From Nicotiana tabacum (taxonomy: Eukaryota > Streptophyta > Magnoliopsida > Solanales > Solanaceae), in contig NC_134082.1 in the NCBI RefSeq assembly GCF_000715075.1, forward strand, positions 214,632,948-214,696,947: DNA of 64,000 nt, given 5' to 3'. Numbering within the stretch: position 1 is the first letter of the stretch; each line of letters opens with the position of its first letter. The position numbers and the translations under genes are program-made. Under the pieces are notes generated by a model that saw only the letters and a program-made list of their open reading frames with translations, was not told where the DNA came from and searched no databases. Positions 4,790 through 40,433 of this stretch are shown here, in pieces.

Positions 4790-4794
4790 TTGGA

Positions 4795-8338: not shown

Positions 8339-8417
8339 AAAACTAAAATTTGACATATATTTTTTTATTATTATTATTATTATTATTTGTTTTTGGCTTT
8401 TTAGCAAAAGGTGGGGT

Positions 8418-8482
8418 TGGACCCGATGAGGGTTGCCTACGTATCTCACATCCGGTGAGAATCAAACCCGTGTAGTTCGGGC
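8418..8482 (-). repeat. Two-stem module, copy a' (element 1)
   Basis: Element sense reads GCCCGAACTACACGGGTT, TGATTCTCAC, CGGAT, GTGAGATACGTAGGCAAC, then CCTCATCGGGTCC. The inner stem TCTCAC with GTGAGA is perfect. The outer stem CTACA with CGTAG has one A-C mismatch. It matches copy a upstream of ORF1 in element 3. Confidence 0.85.
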
Positions 8483-9240: not shown

Positions 9241-9242
9241 AT

Positions 9243-9455
9243 GTGGCATGGGGGACATAGGGAATTTCAAGACTTCTTGGATTCCGCAAATGTTCCCCAT
9301 GTGCTTTTCCCAAAAATGAAGCGTGGGGGACATAGGGGAATTCCAAGGCTTCTTGGATTCCACAAATGTTCCCCATGTGCTTTTCCCAAAAACGAAGCGT
9401 GGGGGACATAGGGGAATTCCAAGGCTTTTTGGATTCCACAAATGTTCCCCATGCT
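9243..9455 (-). repeat. Tandem repeat of about 78 bp, three units
   Basis: Three units each hold GCGTGGGGGACATAGGGGAA, TTCCAAGGCTTCTTGGATTC and AAATGTTCCCCATG. The first unit is the most divergent. Overlapping open frames on the minus strand here arise from the repeat and are not believed to be genes. Confidence 0.85.
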
Positions 9456-10031
9456 TTTGATTAAAATAACACCATGCTGGAAATGACCAAATGACCCATT
9501 CGCCCTTGACTAAAAACAACATGTAGCACATAGGATGCCAAAAGATGGTCTATTATTTTCAGGTTGCTTGTTCTAGACGGACCCAACCCCTATGTTGAGT
9601 CCCCTAAGTCAAATGCACATGATGCAAATAAACGTTCCTACTAGGGATCCGGCATGTGGCTTTGTTATACTAGGTTCAAAAACCTGGGTCGGTGTTCTAG
9701 ACAGTGTATCCGAGCGGACAACTCGAGCTGAGGAAGGAGCTCCTTTCCGGGAACCAAAAGGCCAGCCGGCTTAGAAACTTTCCGAGCCTCTTTTATTCAG
9801 GGTATGACACTAACAGAATAGGGAGTCTCAACCAGTAAGCACATCCCCGGAGGTAAGAAGATAAAGGTTTCGGCATAATTTATATACAGTTAAAATAATA
9901 TCAAAGCGGTAAAAGCAGCATTTAGCACATTAGGCTCAAAACACGTAATAAAATCAGATAATAAATAAAGCCAAATAATAACAATTATTCTAAGCTCAAA
10001 TTCTTAACCCTGAACCAGTGGTTCTGGGTTT
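9456..10031 (-). mobile_element. Element 1 5' leader
   Basis: This region collinearly resembles 22200-22700 of element 3 in reverse complement. Shared strings include CCTGGGTCGGTGTTCTAGAC (here) against its counterpart near 22530, and the CGTTCCTACTAGGGATCCG block. It is the untranslated leader between PBS and the first module. Confidence 0.7.
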
Positions 10032-18396: not shown

Positions 18397-20010
18397 TGTG
18401 AGCACGTGATTTTTGCCCTATATGAATTACTCCCATAAATTCAACACAAAATAATTTCTTTCAGTAGTTGCAATTTTATGGATTTCGTGGCATTTTATGT
18501 TAAATGTTTGCATCTGTCTGTGTATTTTTATTTGTTTAAGGAAAAATACAAAAATATGTGCATTCGCATTTAGGGTCTAATTTAACATTTTAGGATTAAT
18601 CAAGTAATTAAGTTATTTTATAAAAAAGGGGAAAATCACAAAAATGGTCATTTTGCACCTTTTAATTTTAATTTGGATCGTGAGTAGTTTTTCTTTAATT
18701 TGCTAAGATATTTGAGTAGGAATTAATTTAGGTTTATTTGAATTAATTTAGGTTTAGATTGAATTTTAATTTGAATCTAAAAGAAAATTGAGAAATTAGA
18801 ATAAATTGAAACGAAAAAAAGGGTTTTGAATCAGATTTTTTAGGCCTTATTTAAATTCTCAATTTCCAAGCCCAAACCAAACACCTTTGAACTCGCCCAG
18901 TCCAGCCCATAACCCGTCCCTGACTTGGTCCGGTTTCCCCCACTTATCCAAACGACCCCATTTAGGCTAGGTGTTAATCTAGGCCGTCGAGATTAGTTAA
19001 TCAGACGGTCGAGAACTAAGGGGTCTTTTAATACTTATATGTCCGAATCCAGACCCCCTCCTCTTATCGTCTCTCATTCTCACCTCCTCTTAGAGACCAA
19101 TAGGAACCCTAATCCGCCGCCCCTCTTTTCCCCACCTCGAGCCCGGCGGCGCCTACTCTAATCCCACCCAAATTAAAACCAAACAACCATCACACTCTCA
19201 TCTTTCAAAATCCTATACCAGTTTCCCTCGAACATGTCTCGAGCTCGTCGAATCTTAAGTTGAAGATGAGACCTAAAAAATGTCGAGCTCCAGAATCGGT
19301 AGATTTGGTGCCGATTAAGACAAAAACAGGCCTTGTTCAGGTGTTTTCATTTGAGAACACGTGATTGAGACCCTTTTCGATCAAAATCGAGAGTTTGAAA
19401 AAGAACTCCGCGGGTTGTCCAATCTGTTTAGGTATCTTTACATTTTGGTTGGTTCTTTCCTTGTATTTTTCTGTCTTCTAAAGTTATCTTTCTTCATCGC
19501 ATTTCTGTGTTTGTGTTTTCATAGTAAGCTTGTTGTTATTCATGCATGATTTGTCTGATAATCAGCTTAATTATCTTGTTGTTTGTTTAGAATTAGGTAA
19601 ATCATTCTCGATTTCTGTTTTGGTTTTGGGCTTTGGTTTAAAGTTCCCATCTCTTCTTTCTCCTGGCTAATTTTAAGTCAGTTTTGTTAGAATGTTGAAT
19701 CTTTGATTGATCTCAAGTTATGCTAAAAGACCAGCCCATTTGAATTGGGTCTAGTTTAGACCCATTTACTTGGGTCATTTGGACCCGGGTTCTGCTAGGC
19801 TGGGAGGGTAAATAATCAGGGCTCGAGGGGTAGTTTAGGAAATTGGGGAAGGGAATATTTATGTAACTACCTAGGGAAGCTTCTAGGAAGCTGGGGTTGG
19901 GGTTAGTTGTGAATTTTTGGTTTTCAACTAGGGGTATCTAGGCTATAATGAAAATTCTAAAAGGTCTTAATTGCAAAACTGAGACTTGGAAGCTGCCCTA
20001 AAGGTCTTGC

Positions 20011-20019
20011 CTATAAAGG
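20011..20019 (+). promoter_or_regulatory. Candidate TATA box in element 3 5' LTR
   Basis: CTATAAAGG is conserved at 38277-38285 in the 3' LTR. If used, transcription would start near 20045 and R-U5 would be about 2.1 kb. Another start nearer 19040 is possible. Confidence 0.4.
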
Positions 20020-22019
20020 CACTCTACCTTGATATTCAAGGCAGAGGGGGGAAGGGAAATAATCTGAAAAAATCAAAACGACTAAGACTTTGAGAGAAAG
20101 ATACTGTTCCATTACGTTCCCTTCTCTGATTCCTGAAGTCTTCAACTTCTGAAGCAACTTGTGATTCATTTGGAGTTTTAAAAAAATGGTTTGAATTAGA
20201 ACTTGTGGCTGATTTTTTTGGGATTTGAAAAGAATCTGTCATTTTGCTGGTATTGGATTTCAAAAATAGACTGAAATTGTTGTTTTGCTATTAATCATTG
20301 TTGCTAGATTGTTGCTGATCTCACCCTCTTCTCCTGATATTCTGTAGCTATTTTGTTTGCCCCAGGTACACTTTCGAATCACTGCAATGGAACATATGGA
20401 TGTTGAATGAAAAATGGTGTTCATGTCCAGATTTCAGTTTTTTTTCTTTTTTTGTCTGATTTGAGTAATTTTGTTATAGTCTGATGTTCATTGATCAGCT
20501 TATTTGCAGTTTTCAGTAAATGTCATGTAGTGGTCTATAATTGTGAAATTGGACTTTCAGTGAATGTCATGTAGCGGTCTGTAACTATAGAGTTGGACTT
20601 TCATTTTATTTCAGTAGTTTCAAGTGCATTTGAATGAATTTTTAGTTTTGCATTAGAGGTCTAATGGCATGGTGTACTACTGTTGGGTTCACTAGTTGAT
20701 ACACTTGAAGAGTCGATAACTTTGGCTCAAATAATATCAATTTAAGGGCTCTTAAGGTTGTCATCTTTGAGGGTTGATTGAACTATTCTTATATACATCA
20801 GTATATTCAAATAGGTGTATGCATGCTAGTAAAGAATCCGTGTTGTTTAATGTTGAAGGTTTCATGGAATTGGTCTATTAATTGACTTGGACCCAATGTT
20901 TGGAATTGGACAAGGTTGAGTCCACGTTAGCAATGACATTCTTATGAAATCATGTGGACAATGGGCTGGGTCCAAATATCGCGTTCCCTTTTACATTTTG
21001 ATGTTGAATCCATGTTAGGAATTCCATTTTGAAATCACGTTGATACTTTGGTTAGAGGTCATGAATGCTATTATACTTTAATGGTGAAACAAACTATATG
21101 TGAACTTTGTAACGTCATGTGAGGCATCTCTGTTCTAGAATGTGATTTGGTATAAAAAAAGACATTTCATAGCCGTTTAAGTTTCGAAAAAGTTGTCAAT
21201 ACTTATTTAACCTTAAGTTTTTTTTATGAGAAATGTAACTTGTTTCAAACAAAGACCATGAACCCTACAATTGGGCCTTTGTCATTAACCGAGAGACATC
21301 TGAAGCCTCTCAGCTAATCTAGTCTAGTTTTAGGCTTTACGTCGAGCCCAGTTCCTTTTACTTGCTTGGTTATTGTTACCTGTGTTCGGGAGCCGTTCCT
21401 TTTCCAAATTTGGGCCAGTATAATAATTGCGTAAGCTGCTCATAACTATCTAATTTGATTTAAACCTGGACTCATTAGCTTTATTTGTCTTCTTAAATGT
21501 GATCCACTTTAATTGATCGAGGCGAGCCATGTTGTATAATACAAGTAGTTTATGGCTCTTATGGGTTTGTTTAGATACCCTTTAATTAGAAATCGAGGCG
21601 TGTCATTTAGTGAATTATCCGTGGCCCTCACAAAGTCGCAAATGCGTAGTTGCTTTAGGCGCGTTATTTTAATAATTTACCTTCCTAAACTCGGGTATGC
21701 ATTTATGTGACCCAAATCCAAATTCTCAACAATGTTAAAATATGTCAAAGACCACAGGTGCATTTATGTGACGTGGTTCAAGACGTGTTTTAATAACATT
21801 GCAATCTTCCTAAAAATGAATAAAAGCGGTTATAAAGTTAAAATTGCACCATAGGCTAAAACATGTACTAAAATCAAGTAAATAGGCCGATTATAACAGT
21901 TGAGCGACCATGCTAGAACTACGGAATCCGGGAATGCCTAACACCTTCTCCCGGGTTAACAGAATTCCTTACCCAAATTTCTGTGTTCGCGGACTGTAAT
22001 ACAGAGTCAATCTTTTCCT

Positions 22020-22080
22020 CGATTCGGGATTTAAATCGGTGACTTGGGACACCATAAAATTATCCCAAGTGGCGACTCTG
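22020..22080 (+). promoter_or_regulatory. U5 hairpin with PBS echo in element 3 5' LTR
   Basis: ACTTGGGA (about 22042) pairs with TCCCAAGT (about 22063), and TGGCGACTCTG follows at 22070-22080, repeating the start of the PBS consensus found 110 bp further on. The same arrangement is at 40282-40332 in the 3' LTR and in element 1. Confidence 0.65.
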
Positions 22081-22180
22081 AATTTTATTAAAATAAAATA
22101 ATCCTGTTTCGATTGTCACTTAAATTGGAAAAACTCTCTTATACCCTTGCGGGGGTAGGAAAAAGGAGGTGTGACAGCTC

Positions 22181-22941: not shown

Positions 22942-23002
22942 GAACTACACCAGTTTGATTTTCACAGGGTGTGAGATATGTAAGCAACCCTCATTGGGTC
23001 CA
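22942..23002 (+). repeat. Two-stem module, copy a (element 3, before ORF1)
   Basis: It reads GAACTACACCAGTTTGA, TTTTCAC, AGGGT, GTGAGATATGTAAGCAAC and CCTCATTGGGTCC. The inner stem TTTCAC with GTGAGA keeps pairing through a G-U pair. The outer stem is TACA with TGTA. It lies about 320 bp before ORF1. Confidence 0.85.
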
Positions 23003-23322
23003 ACTTCCTTTTTGCATAAATAGCCCAAAAAACAAAGATTTTATTTTTATGGTTAAGGTGATGCCATTCTTGTCAAAAATAGCCGATTGTCCCCAAAAGG
23101 ACGCCGGAAGGTTATTTTTGCAAGAACAGCCGCCTTTGGCCTCTTTTTCAAATTTTTAGCCAATTAGCGAGCACAACCTTAAAATCTTTCCCCGGAAGTG
23201 CTGAAAGGCCATATTCGCAAAGCTGGGTTTTTACTTTTGAAATAAAAAAAATCTGAAAAATGTGAGCTTTGTTTTTTTGGGTCAATTGAATCATGATTTT
23301 TTTTGCTTAACCACCCTAATAA

Positions 23323-25374
23323 ATGTGCAGAATGAGCATGAATCAGATTTTGCCAATAACAGTCTTGAACAAGATTCCTATGGAGTTGCATATGTGGTGG
23401 GATGATCTGGGTAAATCGGGACAAGACACGGTCAATCTATACCTGGGAGGCCTCACTGGGTTGCTGAAGATTAATCCTAGGGGAGACATCATAAAGGCGT
23501 TAGTTACATTCTGGGACCCGGCCCACAACGTATTTCATTTCTCAGATTTTGAACTTACCCCAACATTGGAAGAAATAGCTGGATATATTGGGGGTCCCAA
23601 AGTTTCTCTGAGACACCAGTACCTGATTTCTCCAAGTGCCGTAGTCGTACACAGGTTCTTAGACTCTTTGAAAATAAGCAGGGGGGTCCACGACCCAAAC
23701 TTGGCAGCTGGTTTTTGTACTTTGCAGTTTATATACAATAGATATGGTCATATAGGAGGGTTCAACAAGCCGGAAAACAAAATCTGCAGTAAAGGAAACC
23801 GCCTTAAGTGGGAAGAACACAGATGTTTTGCATTTATGGTAGTCTTTTTGGGACTTATGGTGTTTCCTAGAAAAGATGGGAATATTGACATACGAGTAGC
23901 TGAGGTTGTCAGCACTTTGCTCACTCGGGCTAACAACACCCTCGCACCCATGATAGTAGCTGAAATCTTCCGCGCTCTCATAGCCTGCAAAGCCGGATGA
24001 GACTTTTTCGTGGGGTGCAACGTGTTGTTGCAGATGTGGATGATCAAACACTTATTCCATCGTCCCCAATTTATGAGTTATGGGTCGACAAAGAAAACCT
24101 GCATAGATGAATTTTATACGAAGGTTGATGGGATCAGCCTGCCAGAAAGGGTTACAGAGTGGATAGCACGCCTCCGTTCCATCACTGCAAACCAAATAGA
24201 GTGGATATTTGGATGGCTGCCTGTGGATAAGATCATATACATGCCAGCCACTGGGCCTCATTTCCTCCTGATGGGACTCAAGAGTATCCAACCTTATGCC
24301 CCATATCGGGTTTTGAGGCAGCTGGGAAGATGCCAGATAGTTCCGAGAGATGAAGATCTTAGTACCCAATTAGTCGAGATCGGACTTAACGGTCAGTTTC
24401 ATGAAGCAGCAGTCCGCCAAATTTAGAGCGAATGTCAATACTTAACAGCCAATACCTGTGTGCGTGATCAATCCAAAGGTGAGGTTTCACCAGGGTACCT
24501 TGCTTAGTATAGGAGAGAAATTTAGTTTGGGAGGCCGGCCAAAATACCCCATCTTCAGCAATTCGTCAAGGCGTCACAAGAACAATGGGCTTGGTTGGAT
24601 AAGGAGAATGAGTACAGGGCCACAATAGGAAAGTTGGAAAAATAAGTTAAAGAACTTCAATTCGAGAATAGCTTGCAAACAGCGACAGACGAATGTGAAA
24701 AGAAAAATCTAGCCAAAGAAAATGAGGCCCTTCGAGCCCAAATTCAAAAAATGAAAATAGAGGCAAATAACCCCGCCCGAAGAGCCAAAGATGAAAAACT
24801 CATAAATAACCTGAGGCAGAAAGTGAGTGACTATAGTTTTGACTTGAACAAAACAGAAAGTGAACTAGCCAGAGTTCGAAAGCAATTGGCTAAAAACACA
24901 GATCAACGAGCACGCCTGGTTAAGCAGTTGAAATAGAAGTACGACAATGAGGTCGCGGGATTAAAGAAAAGGTTTATCGCCACGGAAAACAAAATGATCA
25001 AACAAGCCAAAGACTTCAAGTTTGAAAGAGAGCATTGTTATACAACATTAGCACAATTAGAAATAGATTTGCAACAACTTCAGGAGCAGAATCAAGTGGC
25101 CGAGCAAACTTTGGAGGCCAGAGCCCAGCAGATCGGGCGTTTGTTACAAGAAAAATGTGTCATAAGAGAGAGAATTAGAAACATCGCCGATTATGTTGTT
25201 ATGAAGTGCCAAGTCTATAAGGATATGACTTGCGCCACCTTCTTCGCAGCAGTGATGACATTTGTTAAGCAGATAATGAGTAACTTGGACCGACTTCAAA
25301 GGGATCTTGCATATAGGCCCACGACGAGATCGAATGATGTCCCGCGGGCACCAAGAGCATTGATGTATTCATGA
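23323..25374 (+). pseudogene. Element 3 ORF1: plant-mobile-domain-like N-terminus plus coiled coil
   Basis: One frame of 684 codons runs from ATG 23323 (or 23332) to TGA 25372, interrupted by six stops at 23998, 24424, 24505, 24523, 24643 and 24934 but with no frameshift. Most stops are explained by one C-to-T or G-to-A change. Residues 60-95 (FWDPAHNVFHFSDFELTPTL and the following EEIAGYIGGP) resemble the plant mobile domain family, known both in hosts and in retroelements. The last 250 residues are charged and heptad-like (EALRAQIQKMK, ARVRKQLAKN), so probably coiled coil. Ogre elements are known for an ORF of unknown function before gag. The function is not established; RNA binding or nuclear or chromatin targeting are guesses. 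Confidence 0.75.
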
Positions 25375-25650
25375 TTTTTCATTTAGTCTGTATTTCCTTT
25401 TCCGATAGAGTCTGTCAGTTGTTTTGAATCTATATTTTCTTCTGCTGGGGTCTGTCAGCTATTGTTGAGTATATATTTTCTTTTGTTGGAGCATGATAGT
25501 TTTGGAGTCTATATTTCGTCTTTTCATCAACGTCTGTTAGTTTCTCTTGGAGTCTGTTAGTTTTGAGTCTTTGTAATCAAAGCATTTGCCTTTATGAAAA
25601 TTGAAAATCCCAAAAAATGTTTTATTATTTACTTTCACACTTATCTTCCA

Positions 25651-25714
25651 AAACTACGCTCGATCTGATTTATGCGGGGTCATGATACGTAGGCAATCTC
25701 CATAGGATTCGACC
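25651..25714 (+). repeat. Two-stem module, copy b (element 3, between ORF1 and gag)
   Basis: It reads AAACTACGCTCGATCTGA, TTTATGCGGGGTCATGA, TACGTAGGCAATCTCC and GATTCGACC. The outer stem is CTACG with CGTAG; the inner stem TTATG with CATGA uses one G-U pair where b' has C-G. Confidence 0.85.
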
Positions 25715-26134
25715 ATAACCAAAAGAAAAAAAAAGAAGAGAAGAAGAAGAAAAACGAAAAGGGAGAGGAAAAACAAGGGAGAAAAGAAAAAAAAAAGATA
25801 AAAATAAGAAAACTACAAAAAAGAAGCAATGGCAAAACCAGAGGGAAATGGGAGGATGAAAACAAAGAAAAGCAAAGGCCAGAATGAAAAAGAGAAAAAA
25901 AGGGAGGAAGTGGAAATAAGGAAAAGCTGGGATGACGCAAGCATCCTATCAAATGCATAATAGAAACGGTTAACTGCTTAGGTGCATTCATTCCCCAAAT
26001 GTGCGGTTACCAATTTTTTAAAGCCCTAATCACTAACAAGGTTGTTGTTGATATATTGAGTCCAGGCAGGTGGTTAGTTGATTGGCATTCTGGCAACTCA
26101 CTCCTACAACATCCGATCAAAATACAAGCTGAAC
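25715..26134 (+). mobile_element. Purine-rich spacer before gag
   Basis: 25719-25930 is nearly all A and G (GAAGAAGAAG-type runs) and corresponds to the T-rich plus-strand tract at 7262-7362 in element 1. 25930-26134 is the gag leader; no gene is seen in it. Confidence 0.7.
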
Positions 26135-28413
26135 ATGGCCAACCAAGAACCGGAAACAAGTATTGTTGATCCGTCAAAAGAGGTGGAAGAATTGGATGTT
26201 AATGCGATGAAGGAAGAGATGTATAAGTTAAAGCAGCAAATGGCTAAAATGTACCGGGCCTGGGTAAAGGGTCATCCACCACCGGTTTATCCCGCCAACC
26301 CAGCTTATATCCCACCATCGGCCCAACCTCAGGAGCCTCCCACTGCGAACTCATCTCCAACCTTTCCCCTCTACCAACAATGCAATGGCACCACTTCCCA
26401 TACTTCCCAAGCTCCACCACCCAAACAAGTCCCATATCCTCCTCCACCAGTCACTCCCGTTTTTGTGGCACCTCCACCTGCTGCATTACACCGATCTTCC
26501 AGTGAACCTCTGTTCCAAACTCACGACAACCAGTATTATCCCCCTGAACCCACCTTCAAAGTCCCGGAACCATGTTCTTACACCCCTCATCTTGATCTCA
26601 CGGCAGAGACCAAGAAGCCACCCCAAAATCCCGAACATGAGGAGATGATCAGAAAGGTCAAAGGCTTAGAACAATCATTCAGAGATATGAGGGGGTTGAG
26701 GGTCAAGTAAGTGTGGCCTATAAAGATTTATGTCTGTTCACAGAGGTTCAATTACCAACAGAGTTCAAAATGCCCAAGTTTGATCTATACGACGGGCATG
26801 GTGACCCAGTAGCACACTTAAGAGGATTTTGTAGCAAGATGAGGGGGCAGGAGGAAGAGATGAATTATTGATGGCATATTTCAGCCAAAGTCTGAGCAGA
26901 TCGGCGTTAGAATGGTATACCAGACAAGATCACAACAGGTGGTACACATGGGACGATTTGGCCCAAGCCTTTGCCTGTCATTTTCAGTACAATCTTGAAA
27001 TTATCCCAGACCGTCTGTCATTGATGAAGATTGAGAAAAAACCTGGTGAGAGTTTCAAGGAATATGGATTCCGTTGGAGGTAGCAAGCAGCGAGGGTTGA
27101 CACTCCGATGAAAGAAAGTGAGATGGTTGATTATTTCTTACAGGCTTTGGAGCCCACTTATTTTGGTCACTTGGTGTCAGCAATGGGCAAGTCCTTTAAT
27201 GAGGTTGTAAAAATGGGAGGAATGGTTGAGGAGGGACTCAATTCCAACAAGATCATGGGTTATTCAGCAATCAAAGCGATCACCCAGGCCATTCAAAATG
27301 GTACCGGAGGTGTACTTGGGAAAAAGAAGAAAGAGGACGTTGCGACAGTTGAGTCAGGAGCTTGGGTCGGATCTAGGGGCCCTTCACGTTACTATAACCA
27401 ACCTCGACCCTATCATCAAACATACCCCCACACTCCATATAGCCCACCACAACACTACTACCCGCCGCCAGATCCCTATTTTTCCGTCCATCATGCACAA
27501 AACTATACCCAACCTCCCGCTCATGCACAATAGCGTGCGCCAACTCCATAAAGTCCATACCCATCTCCACAAAATACCTATCCACCCCCAAGAGCCTATA
27601 GAAATCCCCTTGGAACAGGTTTTCGGCCAAATCAAGCCTTTAAGAATGAGAGGTTGCAGAAGTAGAAGACTTTCACTCCATTGGGAGAGTCATATACTAG
27701 TCTATTCCATATATTGAGACAATTGGGTATGTTGAATCCGATCGAGACTAAACTGCCAAATTCCTCTTCCAGAAATCTTGACCGCTCGGTGAGTTGTGAG
27801 TATTGTTCAGGGGTCCCGGGTCATGACACAAAGAAATGCTAGAAATTGAAAACAGCTATTCAAGAGCTCATTGATACTAATCATATTAAGGTCCAAACCT
27901 CGGAGGCACCCAATATCAACCAGCACCCGTTGCCGGCCCATCATGAGACAAATATGATTGAGATAGTGCATAAGGGAGGGGAGCTTAAGAATCCTTCGCA
28001 AACCGTCATGATGATTCGGGCTAGTAAAGCCAAGCCGTTTGAAAAGTCAACAAGTGAGAAGTCTGTGATCAAGTTGAACGGGGCAAATAATGAACCATCT
28101 GTGGAGGTCAATAAGGGGTCCTCAAGTGACGTTGCAGGAAAACATGAAAGAGCGAAAGTGGTTGTGCCAGGAGTGACAAACAAGCCTGTGGTAATTGTGA
28201 GGGGTGCCCACATAGATCCTGTCATTATCAAACGGTAACTCAATTACCGATAGTCATCAGCAAGGCAGTCCCATGGAATTATGAACGAGTGACAGTGACT
28301 TACAAGGGAAAGAGGTTAAAGAAGAAGTGTGTGAGACCCATGGTTTGACTCAATCGGGGAGATGATTTGCCCCCGAAGAGTTAAGAAAAGCTAAGACCTC
28401 TAGAGATAACCCA
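26135..28413 (+). pseudogene. Element 3 gag
   Basis: Start ATG at 26135 (MANQEPETSIVDPSKEVEEL). An N-terminal coiled-coil stretch is followed by a Pro-rich linker (26270-26600), then the gag core (FDLYDGHGDPVAHLRGF, ALEWYTRQD, FKEYGFRW). A second Pro/Tyr-rich region follows, then a CCHC zinc knuckle C-x2-C-x5-H-x4-C at 27795-27839. One-base changes shift the frame near 26690, 26855 and 28235. Stops include TAG at 27081 and 27531. The product would be the capsid and nucleocapsid of the particle. Confidence 0.85.
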
Positions 28414-29675
28414 GTGTTGGTGAAGAAAGCTGTGACCGAGGAAGAAGCAGAGGAATTTCTGAGAAAGATGAAAGTGCAGGACTATTCCATTGTAGAGCAG
28501 TTAAGGAAGACACTGGCTCAGATCTCGCTATTGTCATTATTGATCCATTCAGACGAGCACTGTCTGGCTTTGATGAAGATCTTGAACGATGCCCACGTTC
28601 CTGACAAAATCTCAGTAAACCACTTGGAAAAGATAGCTAACAAGATATTTGAGGTAAACAGAGTCACTTTTTCTGATGATGAGTTGCCCATAGAGGGTAC
28701 TGAGCATAATAAAGCCCTCTATTTAACGGTGAAATGTGAAGATTCCGTGGTTACTCGGGTACTGGTTGACAATGGTTCCAGTGCAAATATTTGCCCTCTT
28801 TCCACTCTGAACAAGTTGAAGGTAGATGATGAAAGAATTCACAAGAACAGTATCTGCGTTCGGGGATTCAACGGTGGAGGGAAAGATTCAGCCGTGGACA
28901 TAATGCTCGAGCTTACAATAGTGCCGGTTGAATTTACTATGGAATTCCAGGTGCTCGATGTGGCTGTTTCTTACAATCTGTTGTTAGGTCGACCCTGGAT
29001 TCATGCTGCCAAAGCGGTCCCGTCCACTCTGCATCAAATGGTTAAGTTTGAATGGGATAGATAGGAAATTGTTATGCATGGCGAAGATAATTTGTGTGTT
29101 CCTAGTGATGCCATTGTTCCGTTCATAGAGTTTGAAGATGACAAGGGGCCATGTGTTTATCAGGTTTTTGACACGGTATCGGTAGAGAAAATTCCAGAAG
29201 GAAAGTGCGTGCTAACTCCAAGGGTAGCTGTTGCATCAGTCATGGTAGCCGTTGAAATGTTGAAAAATGGTTTTGTACCGGGCAAGGGTTTGGGTGTATC
29301 TCTGCAAGGTATCGTACAACCGGTTTCTCTTCCTAAAAACTTGGATACATTTGGTCTGGGGTTCAAGACCACAGTTGCAGACGTGAGAAGATCCAGAAAA
29401 ATGAAACAGAGAGCATGGGCCCTTCCAAAGCCAGTCCTGCATCTTTCCAGATTATTTGTCAGGCTTGGTACCATAAAGCGCCCAGTGACGACGGTTCCCA
29501 GTTCGGTAGTTGATATGGATGGAGATTTGATGGAAACGTTCGAGAGGATATTGGACGAAGTGAACACGGTGGAAGCTGGAGAGGGTTCTAGCAAGGCGGA
29601 TGTGCAATTTGTTGGGCCTAGTGCAAAGATTAACAATTGGGAAGCTACTCCTCTCCCCACCAGGAAGGAGTTTTG
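28414..29675 (+). pseudogene. Element 3 aspartic protease with C-terminal G-patch-like segment
   Basis: The active site is VLVDNGSSANICP (D-N-G-S in place of D-S/T-G) near 28760. The later LLGRPWIHAAKAV signature is near 28980. A TAG at 29062 splits the frame; reading resumes in the same frame at 29065. The segment MLKNGFVPGKGLGVSLQGI (near 29260) resembles the start of a G-patch, a Gly-rich RNA-binding motif also seen next to protease in some retroviruses. The frame runs into the candidate intron at 29676. Confidence 0.82.
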
Positions 29676-29855
29676 GTAGTTTGCTTTGATTTTCTTTCAG
29701 TTTATCTGTATTATTCTAGGGTTGTAATTCAGATTCTATGTTCCGTCCGTTTGGATGTATAAATCTTGTTGTCTTTAATTTCAATGAAATGCAATTTCTC
29801 TTTTTTCTCCATTTCTAATAGTTTTATTTTTGTTCTTCTTTTCTTCCTTGTACAG
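29676..29855 (+). other. Candidate intron between protease/G-patch and RT
   Basis: Donor GTAGTTTGC at 29676 and acceptor TTCTTCCTTGTACAG ending at 29855 enclose 180 bp. The interior is T-rich and has stops, starting with TAG at 29677. Removing it joins the upstream frame (phase 2) to the downstream RT frame without a shift. An intron at this position is a documented feature of Ogre elements. Splicing here is inferred, not shown. Confidence 0.72.
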
Positions 29856-32800
29856 TTCTTTTTATGCTGGTTTCAATTATATGATATGCATGATGAATCT
29901 CCGGCCCAGTCTCAAAAGCCAATCTAATTCTGAAATAGTAATTCAAGAAATAGAGTGTGAGAATGAATCAAAATATGATGAGGATGAGGCTTTTGAAGAG
30001 ATTAGTAAAGAATTAAGCCATTTTGAAGAAAAATCCAACCCTAACCTGAGTGATACAGAAGCAATCAATTTAGGGGACCAAGATAATGTCCGGAAAACTA
30101 AAATAAGTGTCCATCTTGAACCACAACTCATAGGGGAGATAATTAAAGCACTGTTCAAGTATAAAGATATTTTTGCATGGTCCTATGACGATATGACAGG
30201 TCTAAGAACTGACTTGGTGGTTCACAAATTTCCCACTGACCCGGCATTTCCCCCTGTCAAGCAGAAGCTGAGGAAGTTTAAAACTAATATGAGTGTGAAG
30301 ATTAAGGAAGAGGTCACCAAATAGTTTGAGGCCAAGGTCATTTGGGTCACCCGGCATCCCACCTGGTTAGCCAATGTTGTGCATGTGCCGAAGAAGGATG
30401 GCAATACCAGGGTGTGTGTTGATTATCGAGATCTCAACAAGGCAAGTCCCAAGGATAACTTCCCACTATCGAACATCCATATATTGATCGATAATTGTGC
30501 CAAACATGAGATTGGTTCTTTTGTGGATTGTTATGCAGGTTACTACCAGATCTTAATGGATGAGGAAGACGTAGAAAAGACAACATTCATCACGCCATGG
30601 GGAACGTACTGCTATCGGGTCATGCCATTTGGTTTGAAAAATGCTGGGGCAACTTACATGAGGCCAATAATGACCATATTCCATGACATGATACACAAGG
30701 AGATCGAGGTTTATGTGGATGATGTAATTGTCAAGTCTAGAAAGCAGTCTGACCATGTCAGAGATCTGAGAAAGTTCTTCCAAAGGCTTCGCAGGTACAA
30801 TCTCAAGCTCAATCCTGCAAAATGTGCGTTCGGTGTTCCTTATGGAAAATTGTTGGCATTCATAGTCAGCCGCCGAGGTATTGAATTAGACCCGTCAAAA
30901 ATCAAAGCTATCTAGGAGTTTCCACCCCCAAAGAACAAGACTGAGGTGATGAGTCTGTTGGGGAGATTGAATTACATCAGCCGATTTATCGCTCAGCTCA
31001 CGACAACTTGTGAGCCTATTTTCAAACTGTTAAAGAAAGATGTTGCAGGCAAGTGGACAGACGAATGTCAGGAGGCATTTGATAAGATAAAGGGGTACTT
31101 GTCAAACCCACCTGTGTTGGTCCCGCCGGAACCAGGGAGACCTTTGATTCTGTATTTGACAATCTTGGACAATTCATTTGGATGCGTGCTGGGACAGCAT
31201 GACATCACTGGCAGGAAGGAGCAGGCCATATATTATCTCAGTAAGAAGTTCACATCTTACGAGGTTAAGTACACTCATCTTGAGAGGACATGTTGCGCCC
31301 TAACTTGGGTAGCCCAGAAGCTGAAACATTATTTGTCATCTTATACTACTTACCTCATCTCTCGCTTGGATCCGTTGAAGTATATCTTCCAGAATCCTAT
31401 GCCCATGGGAAGGCTCGCAAAGTGGCAGATCTTGCTCACAAAATTTAACATTGTCTACGTGACCCGGACTGCGATGAAAGCACAAGTGTTGGATGACCAT
31501 TTGGCTGAGAATCCTGTGGATGAAGAATACGAACCTTTGAAGACGTATTTCCCTGATGAAGAGGTAATGCGCATTGAAGAGTTGGAACAGAGTGAAAGGA
31601 CATGATGGAAACTTTACTTTGATGGGGTCGCTAATATGAAAAGTGTTGGGATAGGAGCGGTACTTGTTTCTGAAACAAGGCATCATTACCCTGTTACGGC
31701 TCAGCTTCGGTTCTACTGTACTAACAACATGGATGAGTATGAGGCATGCATTTTGGGTTTGAGGATAGCTGTGGATATGGGTGTCCAGGAAGTCTTGGTC
31801 TTGGGTGACTCGGACCTTCTGGTGCACCAGATTCAAGGAGAGTGGGAAACACGGGATTTAAAACTCATACCGTATCGACAATGTTTACATGATCTCTGTC
31901 AGCGATTCCAATCAATAGAGTTCAGGCATATTCCGAGGATTCATAATAAGGTCGCTGATACTTTGGCTACTCTAGCGTCAATGTTACATCACCCAGATAA
32001 GGCTTATGTGGACCCTTTGCATATTGAAGTCCACGATCAACATGCTTATTGTAATGTGGTGGAAGAAGAGCTCGATGGGGAGCCTTGGTTTCACGACATC
32101 AAGGAGTACATCAGGATGGGAGTGTATCCCGTACAAGCCACAGGTGATCAAAAGAGAACAATTCGACAGTTGGCAAGTGGATTTTTCTTCAGTGGAGGAG
32201 TGTTGTACAAAAGAACTCCAGATCTTGGATTGTTGAGATGCATAGATGCTAGGCAGGCCACAACTATTATGACTGAAGCACATTCTGGAGTTTGTGGACC
32301 GCACATGAGTGGGTATGTGCTGGCAAAGAAGATCCTCCGGGCAGGTTATTATTGGCTCACTATGGAGCAAGATTGTATCAGTTTCGTGCGTAAATGTCAT
32401 CAGTGCCAAGTGCATAGAGATTTGATTCATTCTCCACCATCTGAATTACACACGATGTCTGCACCATGGCCTTTTGTTGCATGGGGCATGGATGTCATTG
32501 GGCCAATTGAGCCATCATTATCGAATGGGCACAGGTTCATTCTGGTGGCCATAGATTATTTCACCAAGTGGGTTAAGGCTAAAACATTCAAGTTTGCAAC
32601 CAAGAAGGCAGTGATCGATTTTGTGCACTCAAATATCATTTACCAGTTCGGGATACCGAAGGTAATCATCATAGATAATGGTGCTAATCTCAATAGTCAT
32701 CTGATGAAAGAGGTGTGTCAATAGTTTAAGATTACACATCACAATTCCACCCCATACCACCCCAAGGAGAATGGAGCAGTCGAGGCAGGCAACAAGAACA

Positions 32801-33332
32801 TAAAGAAGATACTTCGAAAAATGGCGGAGGGTTCTAGGAAGTGGCATGAAAAGTTGCCATTTGTATTGCTGGGTTATCGCACTACTATTTGTACTTCAGT
32901 AGGGGCGACTCTTTATTTGTTGGTATATGGCACCGAAGTAGTGATACCCGCAGAAGTGGAAATTCCGTCCCTTTGAATTGTCGCGGAGGTTGAGATCGAT
33001 GATGATGAGTAGGTCAAAACCCGCTTGGAACAATTGAGTTTGATCGACGAGAAAAGATTGGCAGCAGTGTGTCATGGCCAGTTGTATCAACAGAGAATGA
33101 AAAGAGCATACAATAAGAAGGTGCGTTCACGGAAGTTTGAAGTGGGTCAGTTAGTATTGAAACACGTTCTTCCACATCAGGTTGAAGCAAAAGGAAAGTT
33201 CGCCCCAAATTGGCAAGGGCCGTTGTTGTAACTAGAGTGTTGTCCAATGGTGCATTGTATTTGACAGATGTAGAAGGCAAATGTGTAGAAATGACCATCA
33301 ATTCTGATGCAGTCAAGAGATACTATGTATGA
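29856..33332 (+). pseudogene. Element 3 pol: RT, RNase H, second RNase H, integrase
   Basis: Domains in order: conserved entry (YKDIFAWSYDDMTGLRTDLV, near 30170); RT palm with FITPWGTYCYRVMPFGLKNA and YVDD at 30712-30723; tethering RNase H (YYLSKKFTSYEVKYTHLER); second RNase H (31610-31990, with YFDGVANMKSVGIGAVL, NNMDEYEACILGL, LGDSDLLVHQI and HNKVADTLATLAS, so acidic residues are kept); integrase zinc finger H-x-H-C-x2-C at about 32280-32410; core from WGMDVIGP, with IIDNGANLN and the Glu in HPKENGAVEAGN. Stops: 30322, 30913, 31603, 32722, 32974 and 33010. A one-base deletion near 33225 precedes the last residues. No chromodomain is seen. Confidence 0.93.
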
Positions 33333-33680
33333 CTTTTTTGTTTGATTGTACTTGTTTGTATTTGGCATGTTTTGAATGTTGAAATGACGAAGGCATTTTG
33401 TTCTGCTATCTAAACACTTTATCCCTTGTCACCCCTTTTGAGCCTTATTTATTTTCTTTCATACCTCTCTTTCGGAATCAGTAGCGAATATCAGAAACAC
33501 AAGCGTGAAAGATAAGAAAAGAAAGAAAAGGAAAGAGAAGGAAAAGAATGAAAAAAAAAGAAGAAAAAAAGAAGAAAAAAAAAAGAAGAAGAAAAACAAC
33601 AAAAGAGGAAAAGAAAGCAAAAGAGAAAGAAAACAAAGAGAAAAGAGAAAATCGCAACAACGAAGTAATTTCTATGGCAT
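33333..33680 (+). mobile_element. Spacer after integrase, with purine-rich tract
   Basis: 33380-33480 is shared with element 1 (6244-6400 reversed). 33505-33660 is nearly all A and G. Long open frames over it are low-complexity Lys/Arg/Glu strings. Confidence 0.7.
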
Positions 33681-33738
33681 GAACTACGTTCGACCTGATT
33701 CCTTTTAAGGATACGTAGGCAGCCTCACGGTTAGGTCC
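33681..33738 (+). repeat. Two-stem module, copy c (element 3, after integrase)
   Basis: It reads GAACTACGTTCGACCTGA, TTCCTTTTAAGGATA, CGTAGGCAGCCTCACGG and TTAGGTCC. Outer stem CTACGT (33684-33689) with ACGTAG (33713-33718); inner stem TCCT with AGGA. GACCT (33692) could also pair with AGGTC (33733). Confidence 0.87.
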
Positions 33739-33999
33739 CATTAAAGTAAAAATCCAAAAGTCCCCAAACAAGAAATGGGGTAGAATTTGTGGTTGTTATC
33801 AGAAATCTGATTTTGAAAGTTGTAATTTTGAACCCATTCGAATTGTTTTGAGCTTTTTATACCTTTTCTTTCTAAACTCATCCAAAAGCCACATTACGGT
33901 CCAAAGAAAGACCTTCCAATCAGTCTTCGAGAAATGCCAAGTCAAGCAAGTAGAGGTGATTCATATCAGAGACAACACTCTGGTCCAAATAGGAAAAAA

Positions 34000-34200
34000 A
34001 TCAAAAATGAGAGAGTCTTATTGGTAAAAAACCCCACGAGCACCATAAGGCAACGGGAGCTGAGTGAAATCAAAAAATGAGAGTCTTATTGGTGAAAACC
34101 CTCATGGTCACCGTAAGGCGAAAGGGAGTTGAGAGATGAACGAATGAGAGAGGTCTGTTGGTGAAAACCTTTCAAGGCACCACAGGATGAACAAGGTCAG
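34000..34200 (+). repeat. M3 repeat, three units (element 3 3' UTR)
   Basis: Three imperfect units of about 65 bp contain ATGAGAGAGTCTTATTGGTG, AAAACCC and CACCATAAGGC-like strings. The same unit is in element 1 at 5590-5830 in the reverse direction. GGT-GAAA-ACC could form a GNRA-capped hairpin. Confidence 0.65.
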
Positions 34201-34930
34201 GATTTGGGTGAAGAAATCAGGTAATGGAAATTCCGGAGCAAGTATGGCAACTAAAAGTTGATTGGTTGGATAGATTGGGCCGATTAATCCAAATTGCATG
34301 TCATGATCATTGGCACCAGTTGTTCCACTCAGATAAGTCTCTTTTCTTTTTTCTCTTCAGATAGTCTTCCAGTTTTGGATTTCCTTATCCTTAACTCTGA
34401 AGGTCATTGCATTTTATTTCTTTTGGGTTTATTTCTCTAAGATGTTCCCAATGTCGGTTCTGTTTAAGCAAATAAGAAGGAATTTCAAAGCTCACTACTA
34501 GCTTCAAGATTGCAAAGCACAGTGCGGCCAGAGTACACCAAAGATAGCATGATGTAAAGTGGGATAAAGTGCCAGCAAGAGTTTCATCGGCAAAATGATT
34601 TGGTAATTTAATGGGAGATGCAGAGGTTTCATTAAAGGGGTCGAAGGTGTGAAACAACGGTTGAGGTATAGAACACTCGGGTCATTCAAGGTCATAGGGT
34701 TTTGAAAGTCAGTCGGAAAGTCAAGCGGTTCAGGGCCAGTTCGGGGAAGCCAGTCAAAACAAAACAATGCAACGGAGAGACCTTCAGCAAAGAATGCCAT
34801 CAACTAACCACCACATTTTAAACTGACGAATTTTTCTTTGATTAAACAGGGGCAGGAAATTTCAGTTGTTTTGTAGAAACCCTCCGTGGAGAAAGGCGGT
34901 CACCAAAAAGGTTTGATTTTTGATTTTTCA
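34201..34930 (+). mobile_element. Element 3 3' UTR, unique part
   Basis: No gene or clear repeat is seen here; the minus-strand open frames have no recognisable motif. Confidence 0.5.
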
Positions 34931-35345
34931 GGACCCTCCTAGAAAATGGGACCTAGAGTAAAGTTTAGAAATAGCGTAATCTAGTAGAAATGTATCCCAA
35001 AGGAATATAAGCAGGTTTAGAATTTTTCATGTTCGAGAAAAGATTCAATTAGGAGTTTTCAAGACCCTCCTGAATAATGGGACTTAGCTTTAAGATTTCA
35101 ATTAGATAACAATATTTAGCGTAAAATCTGCTGTAAGATAGTATAATTCAGCCATAAAAGTTATCACTCTTAAGATAAAATTTGACCTTTGAGTTTTAGG
35201 ACCCTCATGGATAATGGGGAGTAGTTTAAAGACCCTCTTATATAACAAGATTTAGCAGAAGTCGCACCTTTAGAAGATATAACTTAGATTTAAAATTGTC
35301 GTTTAGGTAAGAATTGTCGGGACCCCCTGGATAATGAGACCTAGC
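34930..35345 (+). repeat. Degenerate repeat of GACCCTCCTGGATAATGGGA type
   Basis: At least five diverged units, at 34930, 35069, 35201, 35229 and 35319, share GACCCYCYTGGATAATGGGA followed by CYTAG. Spacing is irregular. Confidence 0.6.
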
Positions 35346-35462
35346 TTTCAAATTCTTAGTAATACTTGGTAATATGATTAGTTTTACACTCACATCTGTG
35401 CCCAGCCACCAAACTGGGGCAGAAAATTTTTCTTTGTTTTTGTCTATTTTGTTGAAGTCACG

Positions 35463-36235
35463 AGCCCGCATAGAGAGCAGGGAATACATTTCAAGTCAGC
35501 AGTCAGGAGCCCGCCTGGAGAGAAAGGAATACATTTCAAGTCAGCAGTCAAGAGCTCGCCTGGAGAGCAGGGAATACATTTCAAGTTCAGCAGTTAGGGG
35601 CCTGCCTGAAGAGTAGGAAATACATTCAAGTCAGCAGTCAGGAGCCCGCCTGAAGTGCAGGGAATACATTCAAGTCAGCAGTCAGGAGCCCGCCTAGAGA
35701 GCAGGGAATACATTTCAAGTTCAGCAGTCAGGAGCCCGCCTGGAGAGCAGGGAATACATTTCAAGTCAGTAGTCAGGAGCCCGCTTGGAGAGTAGGGAAT
35801 ACATTCAAGTCAGCAGTCAGGAGCCTGCCTGGAGAGCAGGGAATACATTTCAAGTTCAGCAGTCAGAAGCCCGCCTGGAGAGCAGGGAATACATTTCAAG
35901 TCAACAGTCAGGAGCCCGCCTGGAGAGCAGGGAATACATTTCAAGTTCAGAAGTCAGGAGCCCGCCTGGAGAGCGGGGAATACATTCAAGTTCAGAAGTC
36001 AGGAGCTCGCCTGGAGAGTAGGGAATACATGTCAAGTTAGCAGTTAGGAGCCCGCCTAGAGAGCAGGGAATACTTTCAAGTTCAGCAATCAGAAGCCCGC
36101 CTGGAGAGCAGGGAGTACATTTCAAGTTTAGCAGTCATGTGTCCACCTGGAGAAAGGAAAAGCATCTCAGGTTACAACTCGAGTTCAGCAATCAGGCGTC
36201 CACCTGTAGAAAAGGAAGACATCTCAAATTACAAG
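35463..36235 (+). repeat. M2 tandem array in element 3 3' UTR
   Basis: About 15 units of 44-47 bp read GGAGCCCGCCTGGAGAGCAG, GGAATACATTTCAAGT and CAGCAGTCA, followed by two divergent units with TCCACCTG (36138 and 36200). Open frames encoding ESREYISSQQSGARL-type repeats exist on both strands because the unit length is often a multiple of three; they are not taken as genes. Confidence 0.92.
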
Positions 36236-36463
36236 TCAAGGCGGCAGCAAAGGAATTTCATCGGGAGAATACAAGTCAACAAATCAACAAGAACCACAAG
36301 AGAAAGTTTGAAGATGTAGATAAGATTTTGTAATGCATAGATTATAGTCTAGTCTATCTTCTTTTTATTTTATCACGGTGTAATAAGGGGTTCAGTAAGC
36401 AGTAGCAGCAGCAACAATAGTGAAATCATAACTTCATGGTAGTCCCAGCTACCAAAACTTTCC

Positions 36464-36530
36464 AAACTACACTGACCTGATTCCTTTATAACCAAGGATA
36501 TGTAGGCAACCTCGGAAGCAGGGTGCGGTC
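36464..36530 (+). repeat. Two-stem module, copy d (element 3, before PPT)
   Basis: It reads AAACTACACTGACCTGA, TTCCTTTATAACCAAGGA, TATGTAGGCAACCTCGG and GGGTGCGGTC. The outer stem is CTACA with TGTAG, where copies b and c have CTACG with CGTAG. Confidence 0.85.
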
Positions 36531-36630
36531 AATTCTTTCAAAAAATGCTTCCCACGGAGTATTCAAACGGGCAGAAATCGTCGTACCCGCTCACTTTATC
36601 TTTGCATGAAAACTCTTCGTGTTTCCGGGC

Positions 36631-36643: not shown

Positions 36644-39600
36644 TGTGAGCAAGTAATTTTTACCCTATATGAATTACTCCCATAAATTCAACACAAAATA
36701 ATTTCTTTTAGTAGTTGCAATTTTGTGAATTTTCGTGGCATTTTAGGTTAAATGTTTGCATCTGTCTATGTATTTTTTTTTTGTTTAAGGAAAAATACAA
36801 AAATATGTGCATTCGCATTTAGGGTCTAATTTAACATTTTAGGATTAATCAAGTAATTAAGTTATTTTATAAAAAGGTGAAAAAACACAAAAATGGTCAT
36901 TTTGCACCTTTTAATTTTAATTTGAATCTTGAGTAGTTTTTCTTTAGTTTATTAATTGTGGCAATTAATTTGCTAAGACATTTGAGTAGTAATTAATTTA
37001 GGTTTAGATTGAATTTTAGTTTGAATCTAAAAGAAAATTGAGAAATTAGAAAAAATTGAAAAGAAAAGAAAACAAAAGGGGTTTTGAATCAGATTTTTTG
37101 GTCCTTATTTAAATTCTCAATTTCCAAGCCCAAACCAAACACCTTTGAACTCGCCCAGTCCAACTCATAACCCGTCCCTGACTCGGTCCGGTTTCCTCCA
37201 TTTATCCAAACGACCCCGTTTAGGCTAGGTGTTAATCTGGGCCATCGAGATTAGTTAATCAGACGGTCGAGAACTAAGGGGTCTTTTAATACTTATATGT
37301 CCGAATCCAGACCCCCCTCCTCTTATCGTCTCTCATTCTCACCTCCTCTCAGAGACCAATAGGAACCCTAATCCGCCGCCCCTCTTTTCCCCACCTCAAG
37401 CGTGGCGGAGCCTACTCCAATCCCACTCAAATTAACACCAAACAACCATCACACTCTCCTCTTTCCAAATCCCAGACCAGTTTCCCTCGAACATGTCCCG
37501 AGCTCGTCGAATCTTAAGTTGAAGATGAGACCTAAAAAATGTCGAGCTCCAGAATCGGTAGATTTGGTACCGATTAAGACCAAACGGGCCTTGTTCAGGT
37601 GTTTTCATTTGAGAACACGTGATTGGGACCCTTTTCGGTCAAAATTGAGAGTTTGAAGAAGAACTACGCGGCTTGGCCAGTCTGTTTAGGTATCTTTACA
37701 TTTTGGTTGGTTCTTTCCTTGTATTTTTCTGTTTTCTAAAGTCATCTTTCTTCATCGCGTTTCTGTGTTTGTGTTTTCATAGTATGCTTGTTGTTATTCA
37801 TGCATGATTTGTCTGATAATCAGCTTAATTATCTTGTTGTTTGTTTAGAATTAGGTAAATCATTCTCGTTTTCTGTTTTGGTTTTGGGCTTTGGTTTAAA
37901 CTTCCCGTCTCTTCTTTCTCCTAGTTTTTTTTAGGTCAGTTTTGTTTAGAATATTGAATCTTTGATTGATCTAAAGTGATGCTTAAAGACCAGCCCAAGA
38001 AGGATTTGAATTGGGTCTAGTTCAGACCCATTCACTTGGGTCATTTGGACCCGGGTTCTGCTAGGTTGGGAGGGTAAATAATCAGGGCTAGAGGGGTAGT
38101 TTAGGAAATTGAGGAAGGGAATATTTCTGTAACTACCTAGGGAAGCTTCTAGGAAGCTGGGATTGGGGTTAGTTGTGAATTTTTGGTTTTCAACTAGGGG
38201 TATCTAGGCTATAATGAAAATTCTAAAAGGTCTTAATTGCAAAACTGAGACTTGGAAGCTGCCCTAAAGGTCTTGCCTATAAAGGCACTCTACCTTGATA
38301 TTCAAGGCAGAGGGGGGAAGGGAAATAATCTGAAAAAATCAAAACGACTAAGACTTTGAGAGAAAGATACTGTTCCATTACGTTCCCTTCTCTGATTCCT
38401 GAATTCTACAACTTCTGAAGCAACTTGTGATTCATTTGGAGTTTTAAAAAAACGGTTTGAATTAGAACTTGTGGCTGATTTTCTGGGATTTGAAAAGAAT
38501 CTGTCATTTTGCTGGTATTGGATTTCAAAAATGGACTGAAATTGTTATTTTGCTATTAATCGTTGCTGCTAGATTGCTGCTGATCTCACCCTCTTCTCCT
38601 GATATTATGTAGCTATTTTGGTTGCCCCAGGTACACTTTCGAATCACTGCAATGGAACATATGGATGTTGAATGAAAAATGGTGTTCACATGTCCAGATT
38701 TCAGTTTTTTCTTTTTTTGTCTGATTTGAGTAATTTTGTTATGGTCTGATGTTCATTGATCAGCTTATTTATAGTTTTCAGTAAATATCATATAGTGGTC
38801 TGTAATTGTGAAATTGGACTTTCAGTGAATGTCATGTAGCGGTCTGTAATTGTAGAGTTGGACTTTCATTTTATTTCAGTAGTTTCAAGTGCATTTGAAT
38901 GGATTTTTAGTTTTGCATTAGAGGTCTAATGGCATGGTGTACTACTGCTGGGTTCACTAGTTGATACACTTGAAGAGTCGATAACTTTTGCTCAAATAAT
39001 ATCAATTTAAGGGCTCTTAAGGTTGTCATCTTTGAGGGTTGATTGGACTATTCTTATATACATCAGTATATTCAAATAGGTGTATGCATGCTAGTAAAGA
39101 ATCCGTGTTGTTTAATGTTGAAGGTTTCATGGAATTGGTCTATTAATTGACTTGGACCCAATGTTTGGAATTGGACAAGGTTGAGTCCACGTTAGCAATG
39201 GCATTCTTCTGAAATCATGTGGACAATGGGCTGGGTCCAAATATCGCGTTCCCTTTTACATTTTGATGTTGAATCCATGTTAGGAATTCCATTTTGAAAT
39301 CACGTTGATACTTTGTTAGAGGTCATGAATGCTATTATACTTTAATGGTGAAACAAACTGTAGGTGAACTTTGTAACGTCATGTGAGGCATCTCTGTTCT
39401 TGAATGTGATTTGGTATTAAAAAAAAGACATTTCATAGCCGTTTAAGTTTGGCAAAAGTGGTCAATACTTATTTAACCTTAAGCTTTTTTATGAGAAATG
39501 TAACTTGTTTCAAACAAAGACCATGAACCCTGCAGTTGGGCCTTTGTCATTAACCGAGAGACGTCTGAAGCCTCTCAACTGATCTAGTCTAGTTTTAGGC

Positions 39601-40428
39601 TTTACGTCGAGCCCAGTTCCTTTTAATTGCTTGGTTATTATTACCTGTGTTCGGGAGCCGTTCCTTTTCCAAATTTGGTCCAGTATAATAATTGCGTAAG
39701 CTACTCATAACTATCTAATTTGATTTAAACCTCGACTCATTAGCTTTATTTGTCTTCTTAAATGTGATCCACTTTAATTGATCGAGGCGAGCCATATTGT
39801 ATAATACAAGTAATTTATGGCCCTCATGAGTTTGTTTAGAAACCCTTTAATTAGAAATTGAGGCGTGCATTTAGTGAATTATCCGTGGCCCTCACAAAGT
39901 CGCAAACGCGTAGTTGCTTTAGGCGCGTTATTTTAATAATTTACCTTCCTAAACTCGGGTGCTCATTTATGTGACCTAAATCCAAAATCTCAATATTGTT
40001 AAAATATGTCAAAGACCACGGGTGCATTTATGTGACGTGGTTCAAGACATATCTAATAACGTTGCAATCTTCCTAAAAATGAATAAAAGCGGTTATAAAG
40101 TTAAAATTGCACCATAGGCTAAAACATGTACTAAAATCAAGTAAATAGGCCGATTATAACAGTTGAGCGACCACGGAATCCGGGAATGTCTAACACCTTC
40201 TCCCGGGTTAACAAAATTCCTTACCTGAATTTCTGTGTTCGCGGACTGTAATACAGAGTCAATCTTTTCCTCGATTCGGGATTTAAACCGGTGACTTGGG
40301 ACACCATAAAATTATCCCAAGTGGCGACTCTGAATTATTTTAAAATAAAATAATCCCGTTTCGATTGTCACTTAAATTGGAAAAACTCCCTTATACCCTT
40401 GCGGGGGTAGGAAAAAGGAGTTGTGGCA
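36644..40428 (+). repeat. Element 3, 3' LTR (3785 bp)
   Basis: Collinear with the 5' LTR, starting TGTGAGCAAG and ending GGAGTTGTGGCA. The end shows decay of TGTGACA. It is followed by GACCT, the target duplication. The open frame at 37402-37656 lies in the leader-like zone and is interrupted in the other LTR, so it is not called a gene. Confidence 0.95.
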
Positions 40429-40433
40429 GACCT

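Follow-up and report, generated by a model that had tools for sequence, protein, structure and literature searches.

The window analysed here is the whole stretch of 64,000 nucleotides (nt) from Nicotiana tabacum contig NC_134082.1, positions 214632948-214696947, in a host genome of 4.0 Gb. Two long-terminal-repeat (LTR) retrotransposons lie in it: element 3 on the plus strand, which bears genes, and element 1 on the minus strand, which is gene-less. Both contain a module of 57-70 nt with a near-invariant core (AACUAC, UGAU, GAUA and GUAGGCA) set in helices that vary by compensatory changes. Its predicted fold is a double-pseudoknot RNA consisting of helix P1, hairpins P2 and P4 and a pseudoknot helix (PK). 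Eight copies are present where the first-pass annotation had placed them by eye, four per element, and their common order and sense in the two elements were confirmed.

In element 3 (all plus strand), module a (22942..23005; E 3.3e-26) lies in the leader before open reading frame 1 (ORF1), with four of five P1 pairs, PK AGUU/AACU and P4 ACCC/GGGU. Module b (25651..25714; E 8.4e-27) lies between ORF1 and gag, with P1 complete (5/5) and three of four pairs in PK GAUC/GACC. Module c (33681..33737; E 1.5e-20; PK GACC/GGUC, P4 AGCC/GGUU) follows pol, and module d (36464..36531; E 9.3e-24; PK UGACC/GGUCA) ends 112 nt before the 3' LTR. The corresponding minus-strand copies of element 1 are a' (8414..8478; PK GGGUU/AACCC; P1 4/5; E 1.6e-29), b' (7365..7428; PK GGUC/GACC; P4 AAUCU/AGAUU; E 1.3e-29), c' (6058..6115; PK UGACC/GGUCA; E 4.6e-20) and d' (1076..1145; PK GUGGCC/GGUCAC; P4 AGCUC/GGGCU; E 5.1e-25), the last ending 109 nt before the 3' LTR. 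E values were obtained by scoring covariance model R1 at every position of the window; the same eight modules were recovered at E 1.3e-29 to 4.6e-20 and the ninth match had E 0.029. R1 was trained on 47 rows that included a, c, d and b (the last via the identical locus L001); the four minus-strand copies were absent from the training set, though close relatives of them were present. A very loose regular expression was non-diagnostic, giving 12-47 chance matches per simulated window. The letter frame proposed at first does not extend to every copy: b and d start with AAACTAC instead of GAACTAC, a reads GATATGTAAGCA, and CCTC and GGTCC are absent from some copies. The proposed outer stem is fully paired in six of the eight copies, with one A.C mismatch each in a and a'.

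Judged from its sequence, element 3 is an Ogre/Tat-type Ty3/gypsy element. Its domains follow the order RVT_1, RT_RNaseH, RVT_3 and integrase, so that a second RNase H precedes the integrase; an extra ORF1 with DUF7745/plant mobile domain (PMD) lies upstream of the gag region; and an LTR of at least 3.8 kb is accompanied by tandem repeats (35456-36238) between pol and the 3' LTR, all of which are Ogre/Tat features. The 5' LTR (18397..22177, +) and 3' LTR (36644..40429, +) are given as the extent of their mutual alignment (94.4% identity); the former may extend towards 22689 and the end of the latter is apparently cut. Between them were located an ORF1 piece (23323..24000, +; DUF7745 and PMD at E 8.4e-13 and 2.9e-9), an open frame after module b (26078..26710, +) that has no Pfam match and was assigned to the gag region by position, an open frame with a G-patch domain match (29065..29679, +) and the pol pieces (30325..32724, +), which comprise reverse transcriptase, RNase H, a second RNase H-like domain and integrase.

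The internal region of element 1 (967..9545, -) is flanked by LTRs starting at 12975 and 966 (97.7% identity). On its own strand it holds no open frame of at least 150 amino acids (aa), with one of 166 aa on the opposite strand, and none of nine element-3 protein pieces was found in it at E<=0.01. Its retention of all four modules bears out the earlier statement that they are kept in the non-autonomous partner. Comparison of the two interiors at E<=1e-3 gave ten DNA homology blocks, of which the four strongest each hold a module and the other six hold none. Between module d and the LTR, both elements also have GAAAACTCTTCGTGTTTCC and a polypurine tract, AAAGAGGGGCAGC (36600-36643; 1040-967 on the minus strand). 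Tandem arrays lie between modules c and d in both (1946-4793 in element 1, 35456-36238 in element 3), and short stretches at the edges of these arrays are alike.

In the predicted fold the strands follow the order P1, PK, hairpin, P1', hairpin, PK', with the nucleotides before TGATT (the 5' strand of PK) paired with the 3' end of the module. Two alignments were used. A1 contains 47 modules, taken from strict-core matches after near-identical ones had been dropped and aligned by sequence alone; P1, PK, P2 and P4 pair in 90.8% of its cells, compared with 19-40% when the partners are slid by 1-3 columns. A2 contains 122 model matches (111 distinct), drawn from the window and from the 88 loci that remained of 94 once six that overlapped or were duplicates had been removed, and was fitted to P1, P2 and P4. 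PK was used in neither alignment, and it pairs in 92.5% of A2 cells against 2.5-44% when slid. All four PK pairs change on both sides in A2, each being G-C/C-G in some rows and A-U/U-A in others. The frequent strand pairs are GGUC/GACC, AGUU/AACU, GGUU/AACC and GACC/GGUC, with GAUC/GAUC rarer; the commonest misfit is GAUC/GACC with an A.C pair, found in ten of 111 rows, in b copies of the family of element 3. Two outer pairs, 29-43 and 59-76, are not formed in roughly half the rows. A search for a PK partner at any position gave a weak signal, with a mean run of 4.3 against 4.0 on permutation (permuted maximum 4.2); that of the fixed-position test was strong. About ten unpaired positions are invariant, most of them fixed in the search pattern.

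The module had originally been described as two stems. That model was dropped in favour of four helices including a pseudoknot because PK and P4 covary beyond what RNAalifold recovers: run without pseudoknots, the program returns only P1 and P2. An outer closing stem, CCCGA/UCGGG, was noticed by eye in part of the a copies, but it is incompatible with P4 and not general.

Since many copies are close kin, covariation was assessed against a null in which columns were simulated on a FastTree tree, the number of changes being matched to that observed (500 simulations), in home-made versions of the idea behind R-scape and not with R-scape itself. For the per-pair null, 101 rows and 18 pairs were used after dropping the two weak outer pairs and omitting L085-L094, of which nine had been chosen for changes in P1 and the tenth came from a pattern with one extra base after GATA. 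The helix sums for PK (276, null maximum 212) and P2 (425, null maximum 294) were reached in 0/500 simulations. P4 was weaker (171, null maximum 225; 7/500), and P1 gave 41 against a null maximum of 146 (70/500). P1 is nearly invariant and covariation therefore neither supports nor excludes it; genome-wide, its fourth pair shows 580 double changes and 5,531 changes of the 5' side only, many of which look like CpG decay. A pooled null, which still included the rows chosen for P1 changes, ranked structure pairs in the top five of 2863 column pairs, but only three of 20 structure pairs had E<1 (0.01, 0.1 and 0.52) and the PK pairs had E values of at least 3.7. In this substitute form, the R-scape check suggested by the first-pass annotation thus yields excess covariation for PK and P2 under the pair-specific null, but only three pairs at E<1 under the pooled one. 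G-U cells outnumber A-C cells by 104 to 53 overall and by 75 to 18 in P2 and P4; this excess favours the sense strand as the putative active RNA.

Across the whole genome, the strict pattern gave 65,920 exact matches (33,415 + 32,505), compared with none for the reversed control; there were none in the viral contigs, a set that may omit records near this genome. The order of copies was evaluated in the first 100 listed matches, which were classed by eye, with copies on the same strand within 9 kb taken as neighbours. Of 47 neighbouring pairs, 45 followed the order a, b, c, d; of the other two, one was of the same class and one was reversed. With shuffled labels (2000 trials), 18 ordered pairs were obtained on average and never more than 28. 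Single copies made up 24 of the 53 groups. In five a-b-c runs the spacing was long, as in an element that bears genes, with 2.4-2.7 kb from a to b and 7.7-7.8 kb from b to c, and two full a-b-c-d runs had the short spacing of element 1 (1.1-1.2, 1.3-1.4 and 4.5-5.0 kb). The listed copies are thus placed non-randomly, a point on which the original reading depended. No a followed any d in these groups, and module a is therefore probably not part of the LTR. Variants were also seen: in L052 (1496-3015) a and b are preceded by an additional a-like copy (PK GGGUC/GACCC), so that three modules fall within 1.5 kb, and L030 and L056 carry a version with a longer hairpin.

Gene context was examined in 16 of 40 listed places, 10 kb each, chosen for likeness to b. 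R1 found module a in all 16. In the 15 loci with gag homology (L018 partly), no further module was found through ORF1, gag and pol within the 10-kb reach. The modules had been said to mark every gene junction; the fixed places stand, but since no copy lies inside ORF1 or gag-pol as read in these 15 loci, 'gene junction' may instead mean 'untranslated stretch'. L022 has ORF1 homology and no gag-pol homology, yet retains all four modules. Distant relatives are also adjoined by modules, with ORF1 40% identical to that of element 3 (L028), gag 31-42% identical (L029, L031, L033, L041 and L047) and integrase mostly 57% identical (L027).

Downstream of modules a and b, about 300 nt containing several ATGs precede the start of coding homology. 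Two ATGs recur shortly after module a and before the ORF1 homology in L009-L024; the distance between them is 26 nt in 12 of 16 loci and 12 nt in two. The position of a before ORF1 and of b before gag would suit control of translation, by internal entry, re-initiation or a brake on ribosomes scanning towards these genes, and coremin RNAs can stall scanning ribosomes (PMC10520033, accessible part). This explanation is nevertheless quite unlikely: in element 3 neither the interval from c to d nor that from d to the LTR holds a plus-strand frame of at least 150 aa, all four copies persist in the gene-less element, and several ATGs intervene in the 300 nt or so before coding homology. On the same grounds the earlier suggestion of ribosome re-entry or re-initiation fits poorly.

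Within classes, chosen module copies are on average 78-88% identical and their flanks 48-71%, the module figure being inflated by the search pattern. At the junctions of elements 1 and 3 the modules show 0.70-0.94 identity per 33-nt bin and the flanks mostly 0.5-0.85, some flank bins being as high as module bins, so that the identity island is only modest. The copies might be regarded as sites at which templates are often switched or cassettes exchanged, their likeness being kept by exchange with no further function at the RNA level; inside elements 1 and 3 the resemblance is indeed greatest in the junction blocks, and autonomous and non-autonomous plant pararetroviruses swap non-coding regulatory regions (PMC5491270, accessible part). 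Exchange would not, however, produce paired changes inside helices, and each place retains its own version (a, b, c or d) across the families seen, which makes this the least credible of the explanations considered and a very improbable one. The idea of a conserved RNA structure at set positions, retained even in a gene-less element, gained further support.

Rfam 15 gave no match at the gathering score in the whole window and none at E<=5 for ten short module loci. HDV-like ribozymes, named for hepatitis delta virus (HDV), form a nested double pseudoknot with helices in the order P1-P2-P3-P4 and leave the bases before P1 free. The predicted fold of the module resembles theirs in that a pair of helices interleave and two of the loops each contain a hairpin; the module differs in its P1 of five pairs, its joining strands UGAU and UA, the GGCA after P1 and the fixed AA before P1, as well as in the failure of ten copies to match Rfam at E<=5. 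The hammerhead core consists of CUGAUGA and GAAA, whereas the module has UGAUU and GAUA and no Rfam match. Retrozymes, like the elements described here, are plant LTR elements, non-autonomous and with structured RNA motifs; their hammerhead ribozymes lie in the LTRs, whereas the modules sit inside the element and do not have a hammerhead core.

A new self-cleaving ribozyme, whose cuts would divide the element RNA into units, would agree with the HDV-like helix order obtained from covariation and with an invariant unpaired core amid freely changing helices (a core partly fixed by the search pattern), and retrozymes offer a precedent for ribozymes in plant LTR elements. We consider it unlikely, given that the ten copies match no listed ribozyme family at E<=5, that AA is fixed where HDV-like ribozymes leave the bases free and that cutting at four sites would leave no intact genomic RNA for reverse transcription.

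Similarly improbable is an exonuclease-resistant RNA (xrRNA), which would halt 5'-to-3' decay so that protected RNAs start at the modules. In its favour, plant-virus xrRNAs depend on pseudoknots and many are intergenic (PMC6299227, accessible part); the positions before ORF1, before gag and in the 3' untranslated region (UTR) fit, and the stop could occur at P1, which has a fixed AA on its 5' side. Like the module, the xrRNA-D type of Tombusviridae/Luteoviridae and coremin are compact pseudoknots of intergenic and untranslated regions. The xrRNA-D pseudoknot, however, which goes with conserved L1 and L2B, appears to arise from the P2 loop (PMC6299227, in part), whereas the 5' strand of PK lies between P1 and P2, and the comparison with Rfam models, the only one made, gave no match. 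Coremin needs a small hairpin with a YGAD loop and a spacer before a second hairpin (PMC10520033, accessible part); no such hairpin was seen in the module copies inspected. The start of the module, (A)AACUAC, is the same as the 3' end of the coremin spacer (AAACUAC being common to both), probably by chance as the coremin hairpin was not seen.

The module is like the RNA transport element (RTE) of IAP, the MusD transport element (MTE) and the constitutive transport element (CTE) of Mason-Pfizer monkey virus (MPMV) in being a structured non-coding RNA in a retroelement, the MTE also having a pseudoknot; unlike these, it is present four times in each element, in related versions and at fixed borders, the folds having been compared only broadly. 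The 5' pseudoknot of Ty1 also lies in the genomic RNA of an LTR element and is tied to packaging; unlike the module, it is single, near the primer site and not repeated. Structured RNA transport elements in IAP and MusD, the latter with a pseudoknot, and a Caenorhabditis elegans element, Cer1, that encodes a protein exporting its own unspliced RNA are described in PMC12786077 (accessible part). As would be expected of a transport or packaging element, the module is kept where genes are missing, in element 1 and, without gag-pol homology, in L022.

We tentatively favour, at somewhat less than even chances, the explanation that the module is a cis-acting handle by which an element protein would select full-length RNA for nuclear export or packaging. 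An element-encoded protein, for which Gag and the ORF1 product (DUF7745/PMD) are candidates, would bind the folded module on the sense RNA and so pick the full-length RNA of the element, which would then proceed to nuclear export or to packaging. Copies would sit at gene borders because these are untranslated stretches in which ribosomes do not unfold the handle, and several copies per RNA would strengthen binding. The fold, the sense RNA as its active form, the protein binding and the export or packaging step are what we infer from the alignments and the placement. Because the gene-less element keeps all four copies, the function is likely to be one that the RNA itself needs when it borrows proteins, such as export, packaging or protection; recognition by an element protein is favoured among these since untranslated placement suits a handle that must stay folded and the gene-less element retains it.

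Several observations weigh against such a handle. Single-sequence folding energy gave no support, with z-scores of -1.65 to +0.76 for the eight window copies. P1 and PK contain nearly as many G-U as A-C cells (29 to 35), so that the argument for the sense strand comes from P2 and P4. Ogre elements have an intron in the gag-pol part. No module copy lies in the part expected to hold that intron site (the intron was not mapped here), and the modules alone could thus not tell unspliced from spliced RNA, unlike an expected export signal for genomic RNA. The ten or so invariant unpaired positions, moreover, would suit a catalytic or ligand site no less than a protein site.

A broader reading, in which the modules would form a new class of functional RNA with HDV topology and a core of its own, self-cutting or exonuclease-blocking, four per giant-retrotransposon RNA and parcelling it into leader, ORF1, gag-pol and 3' units, is doubtful. 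If it were true, tens of thousands of copies would place the module among the commonest structured RNA motifs known in one genome; a handle for an element protein, if that is what the module is, would make clear which parts an element without genes has to retain if its partner is to carry it. The predicted fold, the near-invariant core and the natural compensatory variants make this short RNA directly testable.

No description of the module was found in the accessible parts of the open-licence literature searched, none of which contains the letters GATACGTAGGCA, nor in the accessible parts of PMC9289625, PMC3305785, PMC11963269, PMC6299227, PMC10520033, PMC12786077 and PMC5491270. A survey of structured RNAs in 130 plant genomes reported 16 candidates with modest covariation (PMC12218528, accessible part); by word search, neither 'retrotransposon' nor 'transposable' occurs in the accessible main text. 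Outside both elements, the window also contains a long imperfect inverted repeat at 42432-43609 (68% identity).

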